A model generated the notes under the pieces. It was not told the origin of the DNA, ran no database searches, and worked only from the letters and a program-made list of their open reading frames with translations. DNA of 32,178 nt from NCBI GenBank assembly GCA_002168115.1, contig NHCC01000012.1, positions 9,889 to 42,066 of the forward strand. The letters run 5' to 3'. Below, piece by piece: positions 17,432 through 19,603 of the stretch. Source of the stretch: Rhodospirillaceae bacterium TMED23 (GTDB taxonomy: Bacteria > Pseudomonadota > Alphaproteobacteria > Rhodospirillales > UBA2165). Position numbers and translations under genes: made by a program. Numbering within the stretch: position 1 is the stretch's first letter; each line of letters begins with the position of its first letter.

Positions 17432-18328
17432 CTAACCCGGATCTTCATGTAAATTATCGGTCATCTCTACATGTGCTAAATAACTAGCTGCAATAACAAT
17501 TATTATAGCACCAAACCAAACCCATGTTTCAGGAATCTCATCGAAAATTAAATAGCCTAAGGATGCAGCAAATATAGTACGCATAAATGTAAATGGTGAC
17601 ACTGCAGTGACATCGCCAGCTTTGTATGCACTAGTAATGCAGAAATAAGCAAAAGTTGCAATACTGCCTAAAACTATTAACATTAAGAATTGCTCGAGTG
17701 TTGGTGTAACCCAGAAGAATAAAGCCGGGATAAATGATAGAACAACTGTTAAAGCCGACGAATAGGCTATTACGATAATTATATTTTCGTCTCTGCTTTG
17801 CACCTTGCCCAACAATAAGAAACTCGGCCACATAACCGCTGCGATCAGAATAAAACTAACTCCTATCGAAATTTCCATGATACCTGGACGAATAATAATT
17901 AGGGCACCAAGCATAGCAATTATAACACATATCCAACGTCTTGGATCGTTTCTCTCTTTCAAGAAAAGAATAGCTAGAATAGAACCGATGATTGGCTCAA
18001 TTAACATTAAAGAGGTGGCAGTAACTAATGGAATAACTGTCACACCATAAAACCAAAGAGAACTCGAACCCGTTTGCAAAACTCCCCTAAAAAAAACTAA
18101 ATTTAAACGTTTTGGTTTTCCTATTTCATGCCTTAATCGCCACAAGAATGGAGAAAGCACCAATAAACCGAATAAATTTCGGAAAAACACAAGTTCGAAA
18201 ACATGGAAGTCTATAGACAATAAACGAATTACACTATAATTAGCGGCAAAAACAGCACCCGACAAAGTCATCCATAACATTCCTCGAACATTGCTCGCAT
18301 GCGTTAAATGGTTTGCAATTTTAAACAA
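17432..18328 (-). CDS. EamA/DMT-superfamily transporter, RhaT/YdcZ-like permease
   Basis: A 298-residue inner-membrane protein with about ten hydrophobic helices in two EamA repeats (first half through ALIIIRPG, second from GVSFILIAA onward), the layout of drug/metabolite exporters. The helix with FRNLFGLLVLSPFLWRLR and the block LFLKERNDPRRW are usual for the group. The first residues (MFKIANHLTHASNV) are a short cytoplasmic lead before helix 1. The stop touches the stop of the convergent DsbA-like gene. The substrate is unknown; relatives move amino acids, purines or sugars. Confidence 0.88.
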   Translation of the reverse strand: MFKIANHLTHASNVRGMLWMTLSGAVFAANYSVIRLLSIDFHVFELVFFRNLFGLLVLSPFLWRLRHEIGKPKRLNLVFFRGVLQTGSSSLWFYGVTVIPLVTATSLMLIEPIIGSILAILFLKERNDPRRWICVIIAMLGALIIIRPGIMEISIGVSFILIAAVMWPSFLLLGKVQSRDENIIIVIAYSSALTVVLSFIPALFFWVTPTLEQFLMLIVLGSIATFAYFCITSAYKAGDVTAVSPFTFMRTIFAASLGYLIFDEIPETWVWFGAIIIVIAASYLAHVEMTDNLHEDPG

Positions 18329-18398: not shown

Positions 18399-18688
18399 TG
18401 GTGCGGGCGGCCGGACTTGAACCGGCACTTACTTACGTAAACAAGATTTTCTTACCAACTACAGTTTTCACTGCCACCTCGGTGTTTGTGGCCTGGACTT
18501 TCTCTTAACCATACTCCAAATGAAGTTTAGGTTCTGTCCGTCAAGTCTCTACACCTTCCCTTAAGGGCTTGGCTCGGGATTGCCATTTAACAGGTTTCCC
18601 CGAATTTGAACAGTTCTACTCATATTGTTTCCAACATGGCACTCAAATATTTTAAGTCTTGCGTGTCTACCAATTCCACCACGCCCGC
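18399..18688 (-). tRNA. tRNA-Leu(UAA) gene interrupted by a group I intron
   Basis: On the minus strand the 5' exon (18688-18654) starts with acceptor GCGGGCG and has the D-arm GGTGGAATTGGTAGAC. The anticodon stem CAAGA (18661-18657) follows, then loop bases C32 U33 U34. The 3' exon (18450-18399) continues the loop AAAA, then stem TCTTG (18446-18442), a long variable arm, T-arm GCCGG/TTCAAGT/CCGGC, acceptor CGCCCGC, discriminator A and an encoded CCA. Joining the exons gives the loop CTTAAAA, anticodon UAA, and an 87-nt class II tRNA, so the isotype is Leu. The 203-nt insert lies between U34 and A35. A TATATT-like -10 (18708-18703) sits a suitable distance upstream on the minus strand. No clear terminator follows. 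Confidence 0.95.
18451..18653 (-). ncRNA. Self-splicing-type group I intron (IC3-like) in tRNA-Leu(UAA)
   Basis: The 203-nt insert has the core of a small group I ribozyme (minus-strand positions). P1: exon ACUU (18657-18654) pairs with GAGU (18644-18641), giving the U-G wobble at the 5' splice site. P2: CATGTTG/CAATATG closed by a GAAA tetraloop (18638-18621). P3: CTGTTC (18613-18608) with GGACAG (18539-18534). P4: TCGGG (18603-18599) with CCCGA (18578-18574). P7: GACTT (18547-18543) with AAGTC (18500-18496), which forms the guanosine site. P8: AACC...ACTTC/GGAGT...GGTT (18533-18507). P9: GCCAC/GTGGC. The intron ends in the required G (18451). The P/Q stretch (GGGAAACC ... AATCCCGAGCCAAGCCC) and R stretch (AGAGACTTGACGG) closely resemble cyanobacterial tRNA introns. 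No homing endonuclease is encoded. Splicing is inferred, not shown. Confidence 0.93.
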
Positions 18689-18811: not shown

Positions 18812-19603
18812 TTAGTAATCTTTCTCAGTATCTCCATCTACGGGTGTAACAAGGTCTTCATTGATAGGATCACCATCAAGCGAAATTATCATCTCACGTA
18901 TTTTTTCAGCGACTTGTTCTAGTTCTTCCATATCTGTCCCCCTCGATATGAGCGTACAACCAAAATTACCCGAACGAAAAAAAGGGTAACTCCCAATCTC
19001 AACGTTAGAGTATAGATTTTGGATCTTGGTAAGTGGCTCGGCTATTGATCCTTCAGGCAGATAGCATGCAACGGCTATCGACAACATTTTTTTACCACCA
19101 ATTAATTCTCCTGAAAATCCTTTAAACATAGACCGCATGATAGACGGAACACCTGCCATAACATATACGTTTTCCATCTTAAATCCCGGCGCTTTGCTAA
19201 CGGGATTACCAATTAGGGTTGACCCAACCGGGATATCAGCCATTTTTAACCTTGCCTCATTCAAACGTTCAACAGGTATAAAAGACTCTAAAAGTGCCTT
19301 TGCCTCAGGATTTCGATAAATTTCAACTCCGAAAGCTTTTGCCACGCATAAAGACGTAATATCGTCATGTGTTGGCCCAATTCCACCAGTCGTAAATACA
19401 TATGAATATTTGACACGCACTTCATTAATTACATTAATAATGATTTCTTCATCGTCAGGTATCACCCGTGCTTCCGCCATTCGAATGCCCATATCGGTAA
19501 GGCGCTCAGCAAGCCACCCAAGGTTTGCATCTTTTGTTCGGCCAGATAAGACCTCATTCCCTATTATTAGACAACACGCTGTAACAGAAGTTTCTTTTGA
19601 CAT
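18812..19603 (-). CDS. CinA-like/MoaB-Mog domain protein (competence/damage-inducible protein A family)
   Basis: A 263-residue protein whose first 170 residues form a molybdopterin-binding (MoaB/Mog-like) domain, as in CinA. Typical blocks are LIIGNEVLSGRTKDANLGWLA, VIPDD and TTGGIGPTHDDIT (about 71-84), followed by NPVSKAPGF and AGVPSIMRSMF. The C-terminal nicotinamide-mononucleotide deamidase domain of full-length CinA is absent; this stand-alone form is common in alphaproteobacteria. Members of this domain family have been linked to ADP-ribose or pterin-nucleotide hydrolysis, but its exact reaction here is unknown. It is transcribed in the same direction as MutT, ArgJ and the parvulin gene upstream. 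Confidence 0.88.
   Translation of the reverse strand: MSKETSVTACCLIIGNEVLSGRTKDANLGWLAERLTDMGIRMAEARVIPDDEEIIINVINEVRVKYSYVFTTGGIGPTHDDITSLCVAKAFGVEIYRNPEAKALLESFIPVERLNEARLKMADIPVGSTLIGNPVSKAPGFKMENVYVMAGVPSIMRSMFKGFSGELIGGKKMLSIAVACYLPEGSIAEPLTKIQNLYSNVEIGSYPFFRSGNFGCTLISRGTDMEELEQVAEKIREMIISLDGDPINEDLVTPVDGDTEKDY

Follow-up and report, generated by a model that had tools for sequence, protein, structure and literature searches.

An IC3-like group I intron at the U34|A35 site of an alphaproteobacterial tRNA-Leu(UAA) gene, with relatives in other bacteria, phages and plasmids

Group I introns carry an internal guide that pairs with the exon (P1) and places a U-G wobble at the 5′ splice site, and those of the IC3 type are small, having GNRA loops at both L2 and L9 and a P8 that carries a tetraloop receptor. 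The position between U34 and A35 of tRNA-Leu(UAA) is the classic cyanobacterial intron site. Introns at this position have been described for the tRNA-Leu(UAA) of both cyanobacteria and plastids (PMC4033280), while the phage introns known in 2014 were reviewed as restricted to protein-coding genes (PMC3984707). IC3 tRNA introns, the U34|A35 site in cyanobacteria and plastids, and the host group considered here, through its tRNA-Arg(CCU) introns, are already known, each separately. In the literature searched, older key work aside, no description was found of the Leu(UAA) site in Alphaproteobacteria, of how common it is there, or of tRNA genes of phages and plasmids that carry such an intron. 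Here, we describe a split tRNA-Leu(UAA) gene in a stretch of 32,178 nucleotides (hereafter the window) from Rhodospirillaceae bacterium TMED23. With a probability of roughly 0.85, we read it as an IC3-type ribozyme that interrupts what is apparently the only tRNA-Leu(UAA) of its host, was drawn from a proteobacterial and phage pool, and restores a tRNA reading UUA. By sequence reading, the gene occupies positions 18688-18399 of the minus strand and is interrupted by a 203-nt intron at 18653-18451. Its parts are:

18654..18688, minus strand: 5′ exon of tRNA-Leu(UAA), 35 nt, last nucleotide U34 at 18654 (sequence and uninterrupted gene of the same genus)
18451..18653, minus strand: group I intron, IC3-like, 203 nt, with terminal omega-G (RF00028 and family model R1)
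18399..18450, minus strand: 3′ exon of tRNA-Leu(UAA), 52 nt, from A35 to the encoded CCA (sequence and empty-site comparison)

The 5′ exon ends in GACACGCAAGACTT and the 3′ exon, at whose end CCA is encoded, begins with AAAATCTTG; joined, they form a tRNA of 87 nt with the anticodon stem CAAGA/TCTTG and the loop CTTAAAA. The intron closes with ...GGTAAG, omega-G being the last nucleotide, and is too short for a homing endonuclease gene. In an Infernal search the Rfam group I intron model RF00028 matched 18663-18478 over its whole length (E 3.9e-12), its score of 57.1 bits exceeding the curated cutoff, which is 50, and the family model R1 described below scored 215.6 bits at 18451-18654, the window being among its 21 training sequences. 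ARAGORN called no tRNA at 18399-18688, as is expected since the gene is split. The initial annotation had placed a 203-nt group I intron between U34 and A35 on the minus strand, had recognised this as the classic cyanobacterial and plastid position, and had proposed the above anticodon stem and loop after its removal. Coordinates, length, stem, loop and intron class are all borne out, and the uninterrupted genes of the same genus have an identical anticodon arm.

Comparison with relatives supports the fold. An alignment of 21 related introns from various tRNAs, hosts and phages yielded, by itself, P2, P3, P4, P5, P6, P6a, P8 and the P9 region; with the P7 pseudoknot included, the 50 pairs were of standard type in 98.3% of 1034 pair cells. 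Both sides had changed in 34 of these 50 pairs, against a mean of 19.9 in shuffled alignments and 10-14 in controls with a slid structure. In the window the elements lie as follows:

18641..18657, minus strand: P1, exon ACUU and intron AAA against the internal guide UUUGAGU (sequence reading and the group I pairing rule)
18617..18641, minus strand: P2 hairpin with a GAAA loop, L2 (consensus fold; 8 of 10 pairs changed on both sides)
18507..18613, minus strand: catalytic core, P3-P4-P5-P6-P6a-P7 (5′ strand)-P8 (pair counts and compensatory changes)
18496..18500, minus strand: 3′ strand of P7, AAGUC, forming the pseudoknot with 18543-18547 (100% paired in the 21 introns)

Across the 21 introns each of the core helices P3 to P8 was paired in 98.8-100% of cells, and compensatory changes were present in P3, P4, P5, P6, P6a, P7 and P8, that of P7 being a change on both sides in one of its five pairs (U-A to A-U and to G-C). 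P1 has its U34-G wobble at the 5′ splice site, the guide's UUU is able to pair also with the AAA of the 3′ exon (P10), and the P1 pairing was recovered by script in the relatives too. The window intron has the features of a group I intron: the P3-P8 core with the P7 pseudoknot and P4-P6, the wobble in P1, and omega-G. It carries GAAA in both L2 and L9, and its P8 contains CCTAAA...TATGG, which resembles the IC3 tetraloop receptor; by these motifs it is classed as IC3-like. Among 146 introns, the L2 loop was found in 141, the L9 loop in 140 and the P8 receptor motif in 33.

When the joined window exons were used as a query against 60 related genomes, uninterrupted tRNA-Leu(UAA) genes were recovered from three members of the same genus (G006, G005 and G008), together with a partial match at a contig end in G004. 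The G006 gene is 95% identical to the joined exons over query positions 5-87, and all four read CAAGACTTAAAATCTTG, which is exactly the sequence of the window exons joined. Of the same-genus genomes with a readable gene, two have the intron (G000 and G001, whose introns are 85% identical to each other) and four lack it. The tRNA is located within a few kb downstream of cinA where both share a contig (G000, G001, G004, G005 and G006), and the locus is therefore syntenic. Its neighbours in the window are:

18812..19603, minus strand: cinA-family gene, upstream (NCBIfam match; the order cinA then tRNA-Leu(UAA) recurs in the genus and in several related families)
17432..18328, minus strand: EamA/DMT-type transporter gene, downstream (an ordinary chromosomal neighbour)

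No phage gene adjoins the window tRNA, the neighbours being ordinary chromosomal genes. G000 and G006 have identical variable arms, and differences in the acceptor stem are compensated. As judged from these sequences, the body of the tRNA is the genus's own, and the difference is the intron, not a whole foreign tRNA. Within the genus the intron would have been either acquired here or lost by sister species, two histories that are inseparable because the cinA tree lacks resolution.

The window belongs to a 348-kb contig of a 2.57-Mb MAG of 86% completeness. The initial annotation had inferred an alphaproteobacterial host, and this is what was found: the genome falls not in Cyanobacteria but in the same genus as Rhodospirillales bacterium isolate UWMA-0295, which is G001 (DUBF01000201.1, a record that includes the G001 locus letter for letter). 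The introns of three further members of the order (G080, G062 and G061) are identical, in the columns compared, to introns in records named Magnetovibrio sp. and Rhodospirillaceae bacteria. The host 16S has one mismatch at the alphaproteobacterial probe site ALF968.

For a census of the family, a covariance model (R1) was built from 21 family introns including that of the window, and tRNA sites were assigned by joining the exons in silico and scoring the anticodon arm and T-loop. ARAGORN had been tried as the splice-site caller on joined candidates and was rejected as too permissive. Of 317 genomes in the order of the host, 52 gave an R1 match, as did 50 of 385 genomes of a class-wide sample. 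The commonest site in the order was Leu(UAA) after nt 34, with 18 of about 50 matches (15 strict, 3 near), followed by Arg(CCU) with 8, Thr(CGU) 6, Thr(GGU) 5, Thr(UGU) 4, Leu(CAA) 3, Lys 2 and others, the rare-site tallies being approximate. In the class sample, of about 49 matches, 17 were at Leu(UAA), 14 of these strict and 3 near; Lys, Arg(CCU) and Thr(GGU) came next. In a sample of the phylum, where 41 of 398 genomes matched, it was the site in 14 of the 22 newly read. Five calls with odd anticodons (L299, L301, L308, L319 and L347) are probably misassigned. Against these counts, the premise that proteobacterial tRNA introns are those of Arg(CCU) and Ile(CAU) proves too narrow: Arg(CCU) is among the sites, but Leu(UAA) is the commonest in the order and class samples. 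Of the two options originally offered for an alphaproteobacterial host, horizontal transfer or an under-described lineage, the latter fits.

Within the window's genus alone, the split tRNA differs from species to species: it is Leu(UAA) in G000 and G001, Thr(CGU) in G004 and Leu(CAA), interrupted in the D-loop, in G007, three tRNAs in all. The group I intron in the D-loop of tRNA-Leu(CAA), inserted after GGU, was seen at L004:724-924 (G011) and at L006:1501-1702 (G007); this is an unusual site outside the anticodon arm, with the P1 U-G wobble present.

The family extends beyond Alphaproteobacteria and beyond chromosomes. A single DNA pattern retrieved 98 IMG/VR contigs (L015-L112), in most of which the match falls in a split tRNA gene, often one whose anticodon is UAA, and related group I introns were found in phage genes for tRNA-Leu(UAA), tRNA-Lys and others. 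Among the 24 named genome contigs retrieved by the same pattern were those of Phaeodactylibacter xiamenensis, Salinibacter altiplanensis, Bdellovibrionales, SAR116 and Brachymonas. Besides its split gene, phage contig L019 has 11 other tRNA genes and encodes an HNH endonuclease, and its intron is 80% identical to that of the window; contig L060 contains a helicase gene and a gene of an anti-restriction family. The cultured jumbo Agrobacterium phage Atu_ph07 (NC_042013.1, L327:1480-1850) has an unannotated intron-split tRNA-Leu(UAA) with an R1 score of 164 bits; the paper on this phage counted 33 tRNAs and left the intron unmentioned (PMC6102473). Several relatives in phages, plasmids and elsewhere score below the RF00028 cutoff, which is in part why they have been overlooked so far. 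Some viral tRNAs (L017, L020, L041, L046 and similar) combine the UAA anticodon (GGACTT^AAAATCC) with a short variable arm unlike that of ordinary tRNA-Leu. In seven other contigs (L028, L035, L067, L069, L077, L093 and L108) the intron core is located in an apparent phage protein-coding gene, not a tRNA.

Plasmids of Bradyrhizobium and resistance plasmids of E. coli also carry the family. At L224:2950-3330 (NZ_CP023816.1) an unannotated tRNA-Leu(UAA), with an intron at the same site as in the window, adjoins aac(3)-IId; the split gene linked to aac(3)-IId occurs in 645 of 5426 complete E. coli genomes and on resistance plasmids of E. coli, Klebsiella and Salmonella. In the tree the intron of the E. 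coli plasmids nests among alphaproteobacterial Leu(UAA) introns. In Bradyrhizobium elkanii plasmid pUSDA76 a degenerate intron with the 3′ half of a tRNA-Leu (L226:1501-1702) is found directly upstream of a TrlF-family AAA ATPase gene, and the intact version in E. coli plasmids adjoins DUF3883 and AAA ATPase genes. The location on these plasmids is possibly a hotspot for integration or defence.

An unrooted tree of 132 introns over 206 columns, with cyanobacterial sequences absent, required 28 changes of tRNA-site label, against 78 when labels were shuffled; the introns therefore mostly keep one tRNA site and occasionally move to another tRNA. The introns of the window and of UWMA-0295 group together with support of 87/80 (95/91 in another tree), inside a set supported at 96/91 that includes other alphaproteobacterial Leu(UAA), Thr(CGU), Bacteroidota and phage introns. 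The backbone is weak and indicates no donor, having about 200 columns. By its nesting and its significant match to R1, in whose training set it was included, the window intron belongs to the proteobacterial family, and its nearest relatives, at 79-85% identity, are alphaproteobacterial Leu(UAA), phage and Arg(CCU) introns.

We infer both the direction and the vehicle of transfer, and the histories that may be envisaged for the intron differ in these. A phage may have delivered it, an intron-bearing phage tRNA-Leu(UAA) having recombined with the host gene and converted its anticodon region. The many split viral tRNA genes, the tRNA-rich contig L019 and Atu_ph07 as a carrier all speak for such an entry, as does the supported set that the window intron shares with most phage introns. 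We nevertheless consider it rather unlikely, since the window gene has exons and flanks typical of its own genus, most phage introns form a subclade of their own with Bacteroidota introns as sisters, and a search of INPHARED gave no nearly identical phage copy. About equally improbable is ancient vertical inheritance in Alphaproteobacteria followed by many losses. The Leu(UAA) introns do constitute the backbone of the unrooted tree over many families, and the site labels are strongly clustered, but the distribution is patchy (two of the six same-genus genomes with a readable gene, and 18 of 317 genomes of the order) and introns of Bacteroidota, plasmids and phages are interspersed.

Transfer from a cyanobacterial or plastid tRNA-Leu(UAA) gene with retention of the site would account for the shared tRNA and the shared U34|A35 position (PMC4033280). 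We hold it to be very unlikely: the nearest relatives are those listed above, and the Leu(UAA) intron is widespread across the class, so that a special cyanobacterial import is unneeded. Two pattern scans of IMG/VR gave no cyanobacterial introns, and in a blastn comparison, which serves as a lead only, an Anabaena intron matched no plasmid-borne family member. A proteobacterial and phage pool is thus the better supported origin, as suggested by the grouping in a tree that is unrooted and has cyanobacterial sequences absent. According to this preferred reading, the intron would derive, with no homing endonuclease of its own, from a family of tRNA introns that recurs here in Alphaproteobacteria, phages and plasmids.

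By the established group I mechanism, the precursor would fold and guanosine would attack after U34 at the P1 U-G pair, whereupon the freed 5′ exon would attack after omega-G and the exons would be ligated into an 87-nt tRNA-Leu(UAA) reading UUA. We infer that this takes place in vivo. Splicing is probably essential, to judge from gene content and codon usage, because no second tRNA-Leu(UAA) was present among the tRNAs found in the host's own MAG, where the other leucine anticodons seen were UAG, CAA and GAG, and because UUA accounts for 302 of the 830 leucine codons in the window's genes, more than any other codon; at 86% completeness, the MAG could lack a second, intronless copy that the genome has. 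That the insertion is a degenerate pseudogene which does not splice is hardly credible, given that all core elements are intact, the P1 wobble and omega-G are present, and no other tRNA-Leu(UAA) was found.

The window intron is no lone oddity, and its interest arises mainly from the wider family. Tentatively, and at less than even odds, a single IC3 family devoid of homing endonuclease genes may be spreading between bacteria via phage and plasmid tRNA genes, with Leu(UAA) as its home site, from which the introns in Arg(CCU), Thr, Lys and Leu(CAA) would stem. If so, the "cyanobacterial" site would actually be pan-bacterial and maintained by mobile tRNA genes. Because the split gene escapes ARAGORN and several relatives score too low for the Rfam cutoff, alphaproteobacterial genomes with the intron seem to be missing an essential tRNA. 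The customary view of tRNA-Leu(UAA) introns as belonging to cyanobacteria and plastids is to be broadened.

Compared with the tRNA-Leu(UAA) intron of cyanobacteria and plastids, the intron described here is alike in its tRNA, its U34|A35 position and its group I nature, and differs in its alphaproteobacterial host, its length of 203 nt and its grouping with proteobacterial and phage introns, the cyanobacterial copies being known for this comparison by description only. The proteobacterial tRNA-Arg(CCU) intron of the Agrobacterium type belongs to the same family by its sequence, the copy in G014, a genome of the same host family, being 81% identical; its insertion follows nt 36 of tRNA-Arg(CCU), that of the window intron nt 34 of tRNA-Leu(UAA). 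The Leu(UAA) introns found here in other Alphaproteobacteria, in Bacteroidota and on phages and plasmids agree in site and core, most at 68-85% identity; they differ in the peripheral stems P5, P6a, P8 and P9, and several do not reach the RF00028 cutoff.
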